Shown here piece by piece: positions 7,870-16,477 of a stretch of DNA of 25,673 nt. The stretch comes from a virus: positions 1-25,673 of the IMG/VR virus record IMGVR_UViG_3300037961_001042; one strand, given 5' to 3'. The position numbers and the translations under genes were made by a program. The stretch's first letter is position 1. Each line of letters opens with the position of its first letter. Under the pieces are notes generated by a model, which did no database searches, had not been told where the DNA came from, and saw only the letters and a program-made list of their open reading frames with translations.

Positions 7870-8037
7870 ATGATAATAGTTAAAAAAGAGTATCTTCAAA
7901 CCACGCTAGGTTATAAAATACCTCTTGGCGAAATGAATCAACACCAGTTGCAATGTGCTAAGGACGCATGGGGAGACAAGTATTTTGAAAAAGCAAAGAA
8001 ACAAAAGAAAGCAATAGACAATGACTTGGAAGGTTAG
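7870..8037 (+). CDS. Small protein (55 aa), first gene of portal transcript
   Basis: A 55-residue ORF beginning MIIVKKEYLQTTLGYKIPLG and ending KKQKKAIDNDLEG. It is the first gene after promoter-like element P2, and its end overlaps the next small gene by 17 bp. The VKKEYL start followed by a short strand and a helix (MNQHQLQCAKDAW) is a form I associate with tiny genes next to head genes in flavobacterial phages, but I know no function for it. The good leader, the spacing and the coupling to the next genes argue that it is translated. Confidence 0.6.
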   Translation: MIIVKKEYLQTTLGYKIPLGEMNQHQLQCAKDAWGDKYFEKAKKQKKAIDNDLEG

Positions 8038-8155
8038 AGACGAATATAAGGAAAACACTATATTGTTTGATATTAACGCCTTGAGTGAGTTAGAGCAAAA
8101 AAAATTACAGGAAATAATTCCAGACATTATAAACAAGTATTTTGAGAAAATATGA
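8021..8155 (+). CDS. Small acidic protein (44 aa)
   Basis: A 44-residue ORF, MTWKVRDEYKENTILFDI followed by a helical part NALSELEQKKLQEIIPDI. It overlaps the previous small gene by 17 bp, and its TGA overlaps the next ATG in an ATGA junction, the same coupling used elsewhere in this phage. The composition (a short beta hairpin then an amphipathic helix) looks protein-like. No family is recognised. Confidence 0.55.
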   Translation: MTWKVRDEYKENTILFDINALSELEQKKLQEIIPDIINKYFEKI

Positions 8156-8628
8156 TACAAATTCCACAAAGTACAGTAAGTTCTAGTTCTCATTATATTC
8201 GTTTAAATGTTTACGACAGATTTGCTTTTAAATTAGGCACGTCTGGTTATAGTTACAATCCTTTAATTAAAATGACTAGCCAAGAGACAAATCAGGATAA
8301 AATATTTATTGCACTATCGACTGACACAACTTGGGCGCAAAGATATTTTGCGATGTTGTTTTTAACTGTGGCGGACTTGTCTCTTGAAAATCCCTCTTTA
8401 GGTTTGGTAGCTTTTGGAACAAGAGAATTCCCTTATGGCGTTTATGACATTTCTGTATATGAAAACTCAACGTCTACAAATCTAGCGCCTAATGCAACTT
8501 ATGGAGTGGTTTATCAAGGACTAGCTAACGTAAAAGTAGCAACCCCACAAGAGTCTGCTACAAAATATTATAAATATTTAGAAGACCAAGAGCAAGTTGT
8601 ATATTTAACTAATACACCAATAACATAA
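8152..8628 (+). CDS. Putative virion structural protein (158 aa)
   Basis: A 158-residue protein rich in Ser, Thr, Tyr and short beta-strand-like segments (HYIRLNVYDRFAFKLG, VADLSLENPSLGLVAFG, FPYGVYDISVYENST, TYGVVYQGLANVKV), ending in YKYLEDQEQVVYLTNTPIT. The pattern looks like a small beta-sandwich virion protein such as a decoration, neck or tail protein. It starts in an ATGA overlap and ends in a 1-bp TAATG overlap with the portal gene, so it is co-translated with head-vertex components. I cannot name a specific function. Confidence 0.55.
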   Translation: MIQIPQSTVSSSSHYIRLNVYDRFAFKLGTSGYSYNPLIKMTSQETNQDKIFIALSTDTTWAQRYFAMLFLTVADLSLENPSLGLVAFGTREFPYGVYDISVYENSTSTNLAPNATYGVVYQGLANVKVATPQESATKYYKYLEDQEQVVYLTNTPIT

Positions 8629-11874: not shown

Positions 11875-12417
11875 ATGGCCAAAAGAGTAACAGATTTAAC
11901 AGCAATTGAGGAACAATTAGGTTCAGGCGATTTATTTATGGTGGTCGATGTAAACGACACGAGTTCTGGAGCAGACGGAACTAGCAAAAAGTTTGATGCA
12001 AAATACTTAATACAAACAGACAAAATATCTGTATCAAACGCAGAGTTACACGCTATGAAAGCTACAGGCGGAGCAGGCACGTTTAAAACATTAGTAGGGG
12101 CTTTAAGCGGTTATATGATAACAGTGTACAATGTAACGGTATTAACTACTTATGCAGCTTCAACAGAATCCTCTAGTGAAAATTTATATTTTGGCTATAA
12201 GTCTGATGATACATCTGCTTATTGGAATACTGCTAGAGATTTTATGAATGGAAGCACAAAAAGTATTACTGCTTGTTTTACAGGAGCATTTGTACCAAAT
12301 GGAACTTGTACAGAAACAATTTTAAATAAACCTTTTTTAATGTATTCAAGTGATAATTTTGATGGGGGTTGGACTTGTGATGTTTATGTAACTTATGCTT
12401 ATACTAAAGTGCTATGA
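11875..12417 (+). CDS. Short fibre-like or virion surface protein
   Basis: A 180-residue protein. The N-terminus AKRVTDLTAIEEQLGSGDLF, then MVVDVNDTSSGADGTSKKF, is the pattern found at the start of many phage tail fibres and virion appendages (a DL-V-D-x-x-D module followed by G-T-x-K). The C-terminal 110 residues are rich in Tyr, Thr, Ser and Gly with strand-like segments (FGYKSDDTSAYWNTARDF, CTETILNKPFLMYSSDNF, WTCDVYVTYAYTKVL) and four Cys, as in a small surface-exposed head domain. It may bind the host or decorate the virion. Its stop overlaps the start of the secreted beta-barrel gene in an ATGA junction. The 87 bp before it hold no other gene. Confidence 0.5.
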   Translation: MAKRVTDLTAIEEQLGSGDLFMVVDVNDTSSGADGTSKKFDAKYLIQTDKISVSNAELHAMKATGGAGTFKTLVGALSGYMITVYNVTVLTTYAASTESSSENLYFGYKSDDTSAYWNTARDFMNGSTKSITACFTGAFVPNGTCTETILNKPFLMYSSDNFDGGWTCDVYVTYAYTKVL

Positions 12418-13433
12418 TAAAATACTTATTATTATTAATACCGTTTTTGTCTTTTGGGCAAATAGATTTCTTCAAGTATTCTACTATTTATACATCTATG
12501 AATATGAATACAAGTATGGTAGAAAGACAAGACTATATTTCTGTTGACAAAGGCTACGAAGATGTCACAAAGATTAATGAATATGATTTCAATTTAAGTT
12601 TTGGAATCCGTAAAATTGCTCGCTATGCGTATGAACAGAAAAAACGAACTTGGTTCACAGGTACAGAATACAATGTTTCAGAAAATGTTACTATTTCCAA
12701 TGCTGTTGGTTTTGAGTATCTTGCTAATTATTCGTATATACGCAGTCGTGGCGACACACTTATTGAGCAAAATTACTGGCTTAGATACTTGGGAAAAAGA
12801 TTTGTAATTAAAGCACAATACACTGACAAACAAAAAGTTGATCTTAGATACAACTCTTTAGATGCTAGATTAAGACTAACAAAAGGAGGTTTTGACGTTA
12901 CACTCGGAGGACTATATAGAGTTCATGATGCTTATGGCTATACACCGATAGATGACTTTTGGATTGCAGGAGAACAGTCTTTTCCACAACTAGCAGAGGA
13001 GTTTGGATATAGTAGCGAGTTTGTCAATGGTCAATGGAACTGGTTTAAAAACAACGAATTACTTGCAACATCAAATGACGAGTTCTACAAACACTATTTT
13101 GGCGAAGCCATAGCAGACTTTAACACAAGAGAACTTGAGGCTTTAGGTATGCAAAGAGAGCTTAGCTTAGTGCTTGGTTTATCATACTATAAATATACTC
13201 CAAACTACTGGGTTCACGTTTGGGCGAATCTAATGCCTTTACACTATGGTTTGGACGAATACTCTTACGAGTATGGAGAAAGTGCCTTAGAACGCTTAGA
13301 ATGGGATTCTGGAGCTGTTTTAGGCGCTAAAGTTACAAAGCACTTAGGATTGTTTGTGGAGGGTACACATTTAAAATACTGGGACAAGCCTGTCTACGAG
13401 TGTAAGTTTGGGTTTAATTATTTAATATTTTAA
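12414..13433 (+). CDS. Secreted outer-membrane beta-barrel-like protein
   Basis: A 339-residue protein with a clear Sec signal peptide (MIKYLLLLIPFLSFGQ) whose SFGQ end is typical of Bacteroidota. The mature part consists of alternating polar/hydrophobic strands rich in Tyr, Trp and Phe: NEYDFNLSFGIRKIARY, RTWFTGTEYNVSENVTISN, VGFEYLANYSYIRSRG, WLRYLGKRFVIKAQY, DARLRLTKGGFDVTLGGLYR, ELSLVLGLSYYKYTP, LGLFVEGTHLKYWD, and a C-terminal strand ending in the aromatic FNYLIF. This is the signature of an outer-membrane beta-barrel. I cannot assign a known phage function. Options are receptor masking or superinfection exclusion, outer-membrane opening at lysis, or a virion component exported by mistake of annotation. 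Strand count cannot be fixed by eye. Confidence 0.65.
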   Translation: MIKYLLLLIPFLSFGQIDFFKYSTIYTSMNMNTSMVERQDYISVDKGYEDVTKINEYDFNLSFGIRKIARYAYEQKKRTWFTGTEYNVSENVTISNAVGFEYLANYSYIRSRGDTLIEQNYWLRYLGKRFVIKAQYTDKQKVDLRYNSLDARLRLTKGGFDVTLGGLYRVHDAYGYTPIDDFWIAGEQSFPQLAEEFGYSSEFVNGQWNWFKNNELLATSNDEFYKHYFGEAIADFNTRELEALGMQRELSLVLGLSYYKYTPNYWVHVWANLMPLHYGLDEYSYEYGESALERLEWDSGAVLGAKVTKHLGLFVEGTHLKYWDKPVYECKFGFNYLIF

Positions 13434-13435
13434 TT

Positions 13436-13996
13436 ATGAAAAAATTATTGTTGTTATTATTTATTAGTTCTTTTTCTTTTGCACAAGACTATGACTTTGA
13501 AGCACTGTGTATAGCTTGCGCAGAGGCTAATGGTTTCTATTGTGGCGATGACGTTAGCAACTGGACGCAATACTCTCCAGACGGCTGTGTTCAGACATCT
13601 TGGATAAACGACGGCTGGGTAGACTGTGTCGATTCTAGCGACGAGGGAGAAGACGTTGTTCCTACAACACTAGCTGAGTGCGCTCCACCAGCTCCAGAAT
13701 GTGACACAATATATGTAGAAGTTCCAGTAATACAAACAGACACAATAATACAAACAGATACTATTGTTGAAACAATAATAGAAACAGAATATCTAACAGA
13801 CACTATTGTAGAGTTTCAAGAAATCATTATAACAGACTATATTGATTGCACAACTGGACTACCTTGCAATAGTGGTATGCAAGAAGTGTTAGACAAGTCA
13901 AAAAATACAGGCTTACTTTATGATCTTAATGGTAGAACTATAAAAAGAGCCGAAGGAATTTACATAGAAAATGGTTTAATTAAATATAAATTATAA
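13436..13996 (+). CDS. Secreted Cys-rich protein, LDL-A-like motif and T9SS-like tail
   Basis: A 186-residue protein with a Sec signal peptide (MKKLLLLLFISSFSFAQ, FAQ cleavage). The mature part carries nine Cys. Residues 51-71 (CVQTSWINDGWVDCVDSSDE) closely follow the calcium-binding end of LDL-receptor class A modules (C-I-x-x-x-W-x-x-D-G-x-x-D-C-x-D-x-S-D-E), although other module Cys positions are not standard. A Thr/Asp/Ile-rich spacer (about 90-135) has imperfect TDTI repeats. The C-terminus (160-186: LLYDLNGRTIK, then GIYIENGLIKYKL) has the Y-D-x-x-G-R...G-I-Y-I-x-N-G pattern of Bacteroidota sorting tails used by the type IX secretion system, though shorter than the usual 70-80 residue domain. 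It may be displayed on the host surface. Function is unknown. Confidence 0.65.
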   Translation: MKKLLLLLFISSFSFAQDYDFEALCIACAEANGFYCGDDVSNWTQYSPDGCVQTSWINDGWVDCVDSSDEGEDVVPTTLAECAPPAPECDTIYVEVPVIQTDTIIQTDTIVETIIETEYLTDTIVEFQEIIITDYIDCTTGLPCNSGMQEVLDKSKNTGLLYDLNGRTIKRAEGIYIENGLIKYKL

Positions 13997-14232
13997 TGGA
14001 TATATTCAAAGATAACAACGATTGGAACGAAAAGTCTATAATAGGTTTTATAGCTTTCTTAATAATGTGTTTAATAATGATAGCAGATTTACTTACTGGC
14101 TGGATAGGCAAAGACCTCGTCATAAATGAGTTCATATACGATTCTTTCACATGGATTGTGTTAGGGTGTTTTGGACTTAGTGCGACAGAAAAATTCTCTG
14201 GTAAAAAATGTGATAAAAGTTGCAACAAATGA
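13996..14232 (+). CDS. Small two-TM membrane protein, holin-like
   Basis: A 78-residue protein with two hydrophobic segments: IIGFIAFLIMCLIMIADLLTG (about 15-35) and, after a short polar loop, FIYDSFTWIVLGCFGLSA (about 46-63). A Lys/Cys-rich tail follows (KKCDKSCNK). The size, topology and position two genes before an endolysin fit a holin or antiholin, but the 3TM-type holin of this phage is more clearly the gene at 15330, so this may be a second pore protein or an antiholin. Its start overlaps the previous stop by one base and its stop overlaps the next start (ATGA). Confidence 0.55.
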   Translation: MDIFKDNNDWNEKSIIGFIAFLIMCLIMIADLLTGWIGKDLVINEFIYDSFTWIVLGCFGLSATEKFSGKKCDKSCNK

Positions 14233-14501
14233 AAGAACTATCTGAAGACTCAAAGTTTCAAATTAGCCTTAAAACACTAGGCGGAATTGTGGTTTTAATT
14301 GTTACCCTCGTAGGTATGTGGTTTACGCTACAAGCTGACATAGAAGAAGCTAAGATGCTACCAGAAATGCCTATTAGTGAAAAAGAGTTCGAGCTAAAAG
14401 ATAAATTAATTAGAGGCTCTATTTTAAGCACTCAAGAAGACGTAAAAGAAATTAAAGAAGACATGAAGTATTTGAGAGACAAGATAGACAAAATGGACTA
14501 A
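14229..14501 (+). CDS. Single-TM coiled-coil protein, possible inner-membrane spanin
   Basis: A 90-residue protein. I chose the ATG at 14229, which overlaps the upstream TGA as ATGA. A TTG nine bases earlier would add three residues and looks less likely. After a short polar start comes one transmembrane segment (LKTLGGIVVLIVTLVGMWF, about 15-33) and then a charged helix with coiled-coil character (KLIRGSILSTQEDVKEIKED, YLRDKIDKMD). An N-terminal anchor followed by a periplasmic coiled coil is the topology of an i-spanin such as Rz, which a phage of a Gram-negative host needs to fuse the outer membrane. No obvious o-spanin partner is seen, so this stays a suggestion. Confidence 0.5.
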   Translation: MKELSEDSKFQISLKTLGGIVVLIVTLVGMWFTLQADIEEAKMLPEMPISEKEFELKDKLIRGSILSTQEDVKEIKEDMKYLRDKIDKMD

Positions 14502-14836
14502 TGACTAATTTACCTTACATATTAATAGGCTTATTCTTTTTTTGCATAGGCTCTTGTTTTGCACAAGTTAAAGTTGTTCACTACAATAGTGAATGGAACT
14601 CTGAAAATAATTACAATATTACATCTTTAAAAGATTGCGAAAAAGCTGACGTTGTAATATGTCACAATCCAGAGGAGCAAGAAAAATACGACATACTTGC
14701 TGTTCCTACAATTATAGTTTTTGACAATAGTATAGAGGTTGCTAGGTATGAAGCAAATATAATGATGCAATTAGATTTGTCAATTAGTGATTTGCAAAAG
14801 GCTATTGATAAAATTTATTTAACAAAATTTGAATGA
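14501..14836 (+). CDS. Secreted thioredoxin-fold protein without CXXC
   Basis: A 111-residue protein with a signal peptide (LPYILIGLFFFCIGSCFAQ). Cleavage after FAQ is likely, but IGSC could also be a lipobox, which would make it a lipoprotein. The mature part reads like a thioredoxin fold: VKVVHYNSEWN as the first strand and turn, KADVVICHNPEEQEKY, and the cis-proline strand ILAVPTIIVFDNSIEVARYE at about 65-84. The place of the active-site CXXC holds SEWNSENN instead, so the redox centre is missing. It sits between membrane proteins and the endolysin, joined by 1-bp and ATGA overlaps. Periplasmic binding, protection or a structural role is possible; oxidoreductase activity is unlikely. Confidence 0.6.
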   Translation: MTNLPYILIGLFFFCIGSCFAQVKVVHYNSEWNSENNYNITSLKDCEKADVVICHNPEEQEKYDILAVPTIIVFDNSIEVARYEANIMMQLDLSISDLQKAIDKIYLTKFE

Positions 14837-15330
14837 AGTTAACTAAAAATTTCACATTGCAAGAAATGATTTTTAGTGCTACGGCACAAAGATTATGTAT
14901 TGATAATTCAGCAACAAAAGAAGGAATCATAAAGTTGAGACTCCTGTGCGTTAATCTGTTACAGCCATTGAGGAATCACATAGGCTCTATCAGAGTAACC
15001 TCAGCGTACAGGTGTCCAGCTTTGTCAGAGGCTATCGGATCAAGTGCGTCCAGCCAGCATTGTCGCTATGAAGCGGTGGACATTCAACACGTTAGCAGAG
15101 GCAAAATGGACAACCTTAAAATCTATAAAGCACTGATAGACTTAGACTTAGACTATGACCAGTGCATCTTAGAATTTGGGGACTCGTCCGCTTTGAGTGA
15201 TCCTATGTTTCCAAGTTGGCTACACTTGAGCTGGAAAGTATCAGACAATAGACGAGAGACTTTAGTTGCCTATAAAGATATGGACAATAAAACAAAGTAC
15301 AGACCTTTAATTAAATACAATTCTTTATAA
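14833..15330 (+). CDS. Endolysin, M15-type D-Ala-D-Ala/peptidoglycan peptidase
   Basis: A 165-residue zinc peptidase of the M15 family (Peptidase_M15_3 type), which cuts peptide cross-links of peptidoglycan and acts as endolysin. The N-terminus (MKLTKNFTLQEMIFSATAQR) and LRNHIGSIRVTSAYRCPAL are characteristic. The zinc ligands are visible as His76 in SSQHCRYEAVD, Asp83 in the same motif, and His131 in SWLHLSW, with Glu114 in ILEFG as the likely catalytic base. It has no signal peptide, so it depends on a holin, and the 3TM holin gene follows with a 1-bp overlap. It also shares an ATGA junction with the gene before it. Confidence 0.88.
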   Translation: MKLTKNFTLQEMIFSATAQRLCIDNSATKEGIIKLRLLCVNLLQPLRNHIGSIRVTSAYRCPALSEAIGSSASSQHCRYEAVDIQHVSRGKMDNLKIYKALIDLDLDYDQCILEFGDSSALSDPMFPSWLHLSWKVSDNRRETLVAYKDMDNKTKYRPLIKYNSL

Positions 15331-15704
15331 TGCTAGGAGGGATTTTTAAATCATTAATCGGAAATGCTTCAGAAATTATAGACGAAGTAGTGACAACCAA
15401 AGAGGAGAAGCTAGCCTTAAAAAATAAGATGCGTGAAATTTTAGCTAACGCTGAGTCTAACGCACAACAACAAGTCACTAGGCGTTGGGAAGCTGACGCT
15501 AAGGCTGGTTGGCTACCAGCAAATATCAGACCACTAACATTAATTTTTTTGACCTTCGTGTTTGTGGTTATATCAGTGTTTGACGGAAACATTGGCGAGT
15601 TTAAAATCTCGTCAGCATATATTCCAATTTACCAGACGCTTTTATTGTGTTGCTATTCAGCTTATTTTGCTGGAAGGTCTATTGAGAAAATCAAAAGAAA
15701 ATAA
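15330..15704 (+). CDS. Holin, 3TM gene-transfer-release type
   Basis: A 124-residue protein of the 3TM holin family (PF11351 type). The amphipathic N-terminus (MLGGIFKSLIGNASEIIDEV) and a charged helix (EEKLALKNKMREILANAESN) lead to the family signature RRWEADAKAGWLPANIRPLT (residues 51-70), followed by membrane segments at about 70-84 (LIFLTFVFVVISVF) and 98-115 (IPIYQTLLLCCYSAYFAG). It forms the membrane lesion that releases the endolysin encoded just upstream. The stop codon overlaps the ATA where the following phosphoesterase frame appears to begin. Confidence 0.82.
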   Translation: MLGGIFKSLIGNASEIIDEVVTTKEEKLALKNKMREILANAESNAQQQVTRRWEADAKAGWLPANIRPLTLIFLTFVFVVISVFDGNIGEFKISSAYIPIYQTLLLCCYSAYFAGRSIEKIKRK

Positions 15705-16477
15705 AAGATAAAAGAACATATCGTCTAAGGCTAACCAAGTCAGAACACGACAAGGTCAAAGAGTCAAGACAAAAAGAAAATGAGATAATATTAATTATCT
15801 CTGACCTCCATATTCCATACCATCACCAAGACTCAATTCGCTTTCTTAGAGCTATAAAAGAATACTACAAGCCTACGTTAGTTTGGAATGTAGGAGACGA
15901 AGCTGACTTTCACGGACTGTCATATCATGAAAAAGAACAAGAGCTAGACACACAACACAACGAAACTCTCAAAGCTCGCAAAGTTTTTAAAGAGCTAGAG
16001 GAGCTATTTCCAGAAATGACTCTAGTACATTCAAATCACGGCTCAATGCTTTACAGGCGCTCTAAGACGCACGGAATACCAAACTATATGCTGAAAGACT
16101 ATAACGAAGTTATTGGCGTAGGCACAGGCTGGAAATGGTATGCAGACTATAAGCACACAATGAACAACGGACAGACAGTATTTATGACACATGGAATGAA
16201 AAAGAACGGCTTAGCTTTAGCCAAAGAAATGGGAATGTGCGTAATTCAAGGACACTATCACACAGAGTTTAACATAGGCTATACAAGCAATCCTATGGCT
16301 TTGAACTGGTCAATGATGGTAGGCTGTTTAATAGACGATAATTCCAGAGCCTATGCGTACAATAAGGTCAATAGTGCTAGAGTGATCTTAGGCTGTGGAA
16401 TAATAATAAACGGACAACCTAAGCTATTGCCTATGGTACTAGAAAAGGGAGGACGTTGGAATGGTAAGATTAATTAA
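15701..16477 (+). CDS. Calcineurin-like metallophosphoesterase, non-canonical start
   Basis: A metallophosphoesterase of about 258 residues. Motifs in order: IISDLHIPY (D-x-H), WNVGDEADFHG (G-D-x-x-D), VHSNHGSM (N-H), FMTHG and IQGHYHTEF (G-H-x-H), all the metal ligands of an active calcineurin-like fold. The first in-frame ATG is at 16016, which would remove the first two motifs and leave an inactive piece, so the gene must start earlier. In this frame an upstream stop lies at 15683 and there is no ATG, GTG or TTG before 16016. The frame begins best at the ATA at 15701, which overlaps the holin TAA exactly where an ATGA junction would sit. Phage versions act on nucleic acids or signalling nucleotides; the substrate here is unknown. 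Confidence 0.8.
   Translation: MKDKRTYRLRLTKSEHDKVKESRQKENEIILIISDLHIPYHHQDSIRFLRAIKEYYKPTLVWNVGDEADFHGLSYHEKEQELDTQHNETLKARKVFKELEELFPEMTLVHSNHGSMLYRRSKTHGIPNYMLKDYNEVIGVGTGWKWYADYKHTMNNGQTVFMTHGMKKNGLALAKEMGMCVIQGHYHTEFNIGYTSNPMALNWSMMVGCLIDDNSRAYAYNKVNSARVILGCGIIINGQPKLLPMVLEKGGRWNGKIN

Follow-up and report, generated by a model that had tools for sequence, protein, structure and literature searches.

An outer-membrane barrel, a coiled-coil protein and a thioredoxin-fold protein form a predicted trans-envelope module in uncultured phages, with a possible role in lysis

The viral sequence IMGVR_UViG_3300037961_001042 (positions 1 to 25,673 of the IMG/VR record; this whole stretch of 25,673 nucleotides is called the window here) carries a cluster of genes for exported proteins directly before its endolysin and holin genes. 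Which of these genes belong together, and what might they do for the phage? A first-pass annotation had grouped the three genes with Sec signal peptides, starting at 12414, 13436 and 14501, and proposed that they remodel the envelope or exclude other phages at the surface. We found that the locus very probably holds a real, conserved, exported trans-envelope module, whose core differs from that grouping: a predicted outer-membrane beta-barrel (OMB), a protein with a transmembrane (TM) segment and a coiled coil (COIL), and a protein with a thioredoxin fold (TRX). These three are called the trio; the third signal-peptide protein, T9, is an accessory. Any function of the trio is something we infer, and the one we favour, tentatively, is a role in disrupting the outer membrane at lysis.

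To delimit the unit, we collected relatives from viral contigs by pattern searches, which yielded 445 confirmed relatives of OMB out of 502 pattern matches and at least 469 of COIL from at least 599 pattern matches, with 80 kept in each case. Trio-type modules are present in hundreds of viral contigs from uncultured phages. Loci fetched with OMB as seed carried T9 in 84/89 cases, COIL in 84/89, and TRX in 82/89; those fetched with COIL carried TRX in 76/78, OMB of either type in 69/78, and T9 in 23/78. Because co-occurrence is tight from both the OMB and the COIL seeds, we take OMB, COIL, and TRX as the core. The small membrane protein at 14220, regarded earlier as a bystander, is therefore a core partner given its presence in OMB-seeded loci, and a unit of three signal-peptide genes was not borne out. 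Whole records contained one OMB in 23/23 and one COIL in 22/23; the one record without COIL is a contig whose end falls next to OMB. In loci L055, L059, and L061 the trio is kept though split onto opposite strands about 7 kb apart. The expectation that the genes would co-occur in related phages thus held in viral contigs, where the module is co-inherited and in many of them syntenic. In the window, eight genes on the + strand overlap or nearly abut between 11875 and 15704; the ORF (open reading frame) list and family matches agreed with the coordinates given earlier for the three leader-bearing genes and their neighbours.

11875..12417, + strand: fibre-like gene; 4-nt overlap with OMB; context, outside the trio
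12414..13433, + strand: OMB, predicted phage-specific outer-membrane beta-barrel, type I, core; 339 aa; about 12 strands, Q-rule signal peptide (SFG/Q16), C-terminal Phe
13436..13996, + strand: T9, predicted secreted protein, accessory; 186 aa; leader SFA/Q17; Cys-rich LDLa-like head, stalk, and tail resembling the C-terminal domain (CTD) of type IX secretion system (T9SS) cargo
13996..14232, + strand: small membrane protein, variable neighbour, not core; 78 aa
14220..14501, + strand: COIL, N-terminal TM segment and periplasmic coiled coil, core; 93 aa; i-spanin-like topology (predicted)
14501..14836, + strand: TRX, exported thioredoxin fold without CxxC, core; 111 aa; adjoins COIL
14833..15330, + strand: M15 peptidase endolysin; PHROG_894 5e-30, Peptidase_M15_3 PF08291 2e-11; 4-nt overlap with TRX
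15330..15704, + strand: holin; PHROG_3427 1.6e-21; 1-nt overlap with endolysin

OMB is predicted to be an outer-membrane beta-barrel with a signal peptide, as its beta-barrel-like appearance had suggested. An AlphaFold2 model gave a barrel of 12 strands plus a helical insert (pLDDT 72, pTM 0.70), comparison of this structure with the PDB returned outer-membrane 12-stranded barrels (Tsx, Z 15.5), and 79/92 type-I OMB proteins end in Phe. OMB resembles the known 12-stranded barrels (Tsx, KdgM/NanC, NalP, FapF, and OMPLA) in barrel size and fold class, whereas its identity to them is about 10% and implies no common function. An OMPLA-like enzyme, a candidate taken from the fold list, was rejected: the fold match is generic, and we saw no HxSNG motif in OMB. 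Membership in a known family was likewise rejected because OMB has no match in PHROG, Pfam, PDB sequences, or INPHARED. We found no relatives among bacterial genome contigs (by the patterns used) or in 399 genomes of the order of genome G001, and fold searches of the PDB and BFVD gave generic barrels only, except for one viral relative, A0A516LKJ4, that is 31% identical. In L002 to L004 and L016, OMB is 81 to 87% identical to that of the window while the capsid protein is about 28 to 30% identical; in L005 to L013, OMB is about 60% identical and none of the window's other structural genes was detected. Because its identity far exceeds that of structural genes, we conclude that OMB moves between phage lineages.

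The other two core proteins are encoded as a pair, on the same strand in 161/161 loci and with a gap of -40 to 60 nt in 157/161. The predicted topology of COIL is one TM segment near residue 16 followed by a coiled-coil tail of 55 to 60 residues, and the hydrophobic fraction at heptad positions a and d is 0.69, compared with 0.457±0.011 in shuffled sequences (n=165). COIL is thus predicted to have the N-terminal TM segment and periplasmic coiled coil that define an i-spanin. No match to it was found among INPHARED phages. The thioredoxin fold noted for the gene at 14501 was confirmed: PF00085 matched 13/16 TRX relatives (best 3e-9), and matches to PDB thioredoxin profiles reached 9e-9. CxxC occurs in 0/161 relatives and [VIL]PT in 160/161, so by its sequence TRX is a redox-dead thioredoxin fold.

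Glutamine at +1 after a Sec leader is the Q-rule of Bacteroidetes (PMC5837995). With a simple rule (an N-terminal hydrophobic core plus an [AGSC]Q site) applied to the 38 non-overlapping window ORFs of at least 60 aa, OMB, T9, and TRX were the only three that resembled Q-rule substrates of signal peptidase I (SPI). The +1 Gln is kept in 89/92 type-I OMB proteins, in 155/161 TRX leaders as [AGSC]Q, and in 95/95 T9 leaders as [AGSCT]Q, in agreement with the Sec leaders called earlier. Phages of Porphyromonas gingivalis (PMC10367356) also encode uncharacterised proteins with Q-rule signal peptides; the likeness lies in the leader type. Taken with the T9SS-like tail of T9 and two contigs from metagenome-assembled genomes (MAGs), the Q-rule leaders indicate that the hosts of trio phages are probably Bacteroidota; a marine habitat for phages and hosts is our assumption. 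The leaders also bear on whether the module supplies virion components, as its position next to structural genes might suggest. We consider this most improbable, since Sec leaders would export the proteins and neither OMB nor T9 has a structural match in PHROG.

T9 consists of a Cys-rich LDLa-like head (its Pfam LDLa match is below the curated cut-off), a low-complexity TDTI-type stalk of variable length, and a short CTD-like tail. Its AlphaFold model (pLDDT 56) was too poor and was not used for fold search. A Crocinitomicaceae MAG protein of 1138 aa (L101:7956-11372) has at least two tandem T9-type Cys-rich domains and, at its end, a T9SS CTD; the T9 head shares 51% identity with one of these repeat domains, which links the phage domain to a secreted bacterial protein. 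Against a local CTD hidden Markov model (HMM), 19/24 T9 tails scored >6 bits compared with 0/480 shuffles, a specific but weak signal, and in the null set for this HMM all 56 of 56 matches >6 bits were T9 proteins. No match to the TIGR04183 sorting domain was found at E<1 in 16/16 members. T9 has a Sec leader like T9SS type A cargo (TIGR04183), a head domain found also in the bacterial protein with the T9SS CTD, and a short tail, YDLNGR...GIYI, with weak similarity to the final strands of a CTD; unlike that cargo, its tail is truncated and without a match to the curated model. As for the earlier label of T9SS-like cargo, the tail is short and its score sub-threshold. T9 directly follows OMB in 84/86 type-I loci vs 6/64 type-II loci, and together with its low frequency in COIL-seeded loci this makes T9 an accessory of type-I OMB rather than part of the core.

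A barrel and a T9SS-like cargo resemble host functions, and Cryophage carries T9SS cargos (PMC7468147), so the module could be host-conversion cargo (a moron), for example an uptake barrel. This is very unlikely, as the core is near-constant, unlike a patchy accessory gene, and OMB had no relative in the bacterial genomes searched.

We then considered the company that the module keeps. Of 120 eligible loci, 81 have a window-type M15 or holin gene no more than 3 kb from COIL-TRX, and in phages of 26 to 35 kb COIL, TRX, M15, and holin are contiguous. The proposed order with endolysin and holin therefore stands for these phages; it fails in L005, L007, L008, and L011, a lineage of 50 to 65 kb in which the only holin-like match is weak and lies 26 to 38 kb off on the linear record. 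Two MAG contigs among the 399 genomes also pair COIL-TRX with lysis-type genes: L318 (G181:C67) has COIL-TRX and an M15-like gene with no OMB match nearby, and L319 has COIL-TRX with genes read as XhlA-like holin and lysozyme-like. The genes of L318 stand beside a TonB-dependent receptor gene, possibly at a prophage edge.

Such neighbours could mean that COIL and TRX control lysis timing by regulating the holin or the M15 endolysin from the periplasm, with OMB and T9 as a separate, travelling surface function. The overlaps from COIL through TRX and M15 to holin look translationally coupled, OMB-T9 and COIL-TRX are separable, L318 has COIL-TRX and M15 with no OMB match, and two COIL members have matches to PHROG_10340 (holin/anti-holin; best 1e-4). 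We nonetheless regard timing control as unlikely, because the presence of OMB in COIL-seeded loci is too tight for independent functions and because the module can sit far from the holin.

We also asked whether trio phages have spanins. Rule-based scans of the window found no plausible lipoprotein ORF that could be an o-spanin (the TRX of the window's lineage has a conserved Cys, IGSC, which bears on this negative) and no protein with a lipobox and a C-terminal TM domain (TMD), as in a unimolecular spanin (u-spanin), except an implausible antisense ORF at 7906-8193. A heuristic scan of 11 trio phages with whole or near-whole sequences detected no u-spanin in any of them. Small lipoproteins stand beside OMB in 6/162 loci; these proteins, often proline-rich (L013:9044-9205, L083:9056-9247, L015:7735-7926, and in L070, L071, and L084), resemble Rz1-type o-spanins in size and composition only.

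For comparison, we used portal-seeded relatives, among them 17 newly fetched close ones (58 to 96% identity) with enough sequence. The trio is present in 15/17. In the other two, L239 and L250, OMB, T9, COIL, and TRX are absent, which means that the module can be absent; the fibre-like gene and M15 are kept, the former leading to the latter (in L250 via one 54-aa ORF). The distant portal relatives L258 (36%) and L262 (32%) have no trio and have a protein with lipobox and C-terminal TMD. That of L258 matches PHROG_1804, an Rz-like spanin, at 4.6e-4, and the sole match of that of L262 is a PHROG of unassigned function. Among 14 loci fetched with the L262 protein, the trio occurred in 0/14 within the sequence examined and the portal in 10/14.

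Kongari et al. (2018) counted Croceibacter and Bacteroides phages among those without spanins and suggested an outer-membrane protein (OMP) as a possible o-spanin (PMC6139136). Together with the topology, the usual company of lysis genes, and the lack of detected spanins, this leads us to favour, with less than even confidence, a lysis role for the trio as an OMP-based, lipoprotein-free spanin equivalent or outer-membrane-disruption complex. OMB would be inserted in the outer membrane ahead of lysis, COIL would be an inner-membrane anchor whose coiled coil extends into the periplasm, and TRX would serve as a scaffold or adaptor joining the two across the peptidoglycan. After the holin has triggered and the peptidoglycan has been cleared by the M15 endolysin, this linked complex would disrupt the outer membrane. 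In type-I phages, OMB may additionally carry or anchor T9, which the host type IX system would probably send to the cell surface. We infer that OMB, COIL, and TRX touch one another and act at lysis, and that T9 reaches the cell surface.

Several observations weigh against the lysis role. The main difficulty is posed by the trio-less relatives L239, L250, and L265, in which our scan detected no spanin either; lysis there therefore needs neither or uses other means. The lipoprotein scan follows rough rules, and known cases escaped it until these were loosened. OMB and COIL have no good match to spanin families, the nearest being a marginal match of two COIL members to PHROG_739 (spanin; E 0.04). 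The contrast in spanins tracks phage lineages rather than forming an independent statistical test, and because the lineages are not independent we claim no Fisher test of trio vs spanin. The distant holin of the 50- to 65-kb lineage also fits poorly. Finally, the surface loops of OMB are as conserved as its strands, and both this and T9 exceed what a spanin requires.

The main alternative is surface exclusion or envelope remodelling, in which OMB and T9 at the surface would block re-adsorption or superinfection and COIL and TRX would be the inner-membrane and periplasmic parts. OMB and T9 are predicted to be surface-exposed, the T9 head also occurs in a bacterial protein with a T9SS CTD, OMB comes after fibre-like genes in several lineages, and there is precedent in phage T5 Llp, which shows that a phage protein can exclude superinfection at the receptor (PMC9586334). 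Conservation of OMB at about 60% across otherwise undetectably related phages, loops included, is unlike a receptor-specific mask, and the obligatory COIL and TRX, usually beside endolysin and holin, are left unexplained. We judge surface exclusion rather unlikely, and lysis at least as likely, because trio phages lack a detected spanin and some trio-less relatives have spanins. The placement of the module in periplasm, outer membrane, and cell surface can be kept, with the inner membrane added and the surface probable; we give a remodelling or exclusion role as its purpose somewhat less weight than a lysis role.

Compared with known systems, COIL is like the i-spanin of two-component spanins (lambda Rz/Rz1) in its N-terminal TM segment, its periplasmic coiled coil, and its place beside endolysin and holin; the window differs in that no o-spanin lipoprotein was found and the outer-membrane partner would be a barrel, together with a thioredoxin-fold protein. 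Unimolecular spanins (T1 gp11 type) occur in relatives that have a related portal and no trio; each is one lipoprotein with a C-terminal TMD, compared with three proteins in the trio. T5 Llp is a single lipoprotein acting on one receptor. OMB is, like Llp, a phage-encoded outer-membrane protein, and differs in being a barrel and in having partners in the inner membrane and periplasm that are obligatory. If the lysis role is right, the trio might, with still more reserve than that role itself, represent a third class of phage outer-membrane-disruption machine that does without a lipoprotein and combines a phage-specific barrel with a redox-dead thioredoxin and a coiled coil anchored in the inner membrane. 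It would be widespread in uncultured Bacteroidota phages, some of which would also display a T9SS-exported surface protein. The 2018 spanin survey (PMC6139136) did not settle how the outer membrane is breached by phages in which no spanin is recognised, and the trio, with its hundreds of viral contigs, offers a concrete candidate that can be tested. Should surface modification be true instead, the module would be a common, unstudied way for phages to alter the host envelope.

Among the remaining genes, the 78-aa membrane protein at 13996-14232 occurs in 46/89 OMB loci at varying positions, and its Pfam match to TssN is weak, below the curated cut-off. PHROG_1501-type proteins of unassigned function with an HCGN...AGCLLVG motif, a possible peptidoglycan enzyme, lie near the module at L005:7367-7858, L013:14152-14646, and L083:14047-14544. 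Downstream of the holin, a metallophosphoesterase ORF listed from 16016 (to 16477) covers PHROG_221 positions 196-358. Its frame is open back to 15704, and the in-frame extension 15704-16016 encodes the N-terminal part absent from the listed ORF; because of this open frame, the gene is longer than listed, with a start probably near the holin stop.

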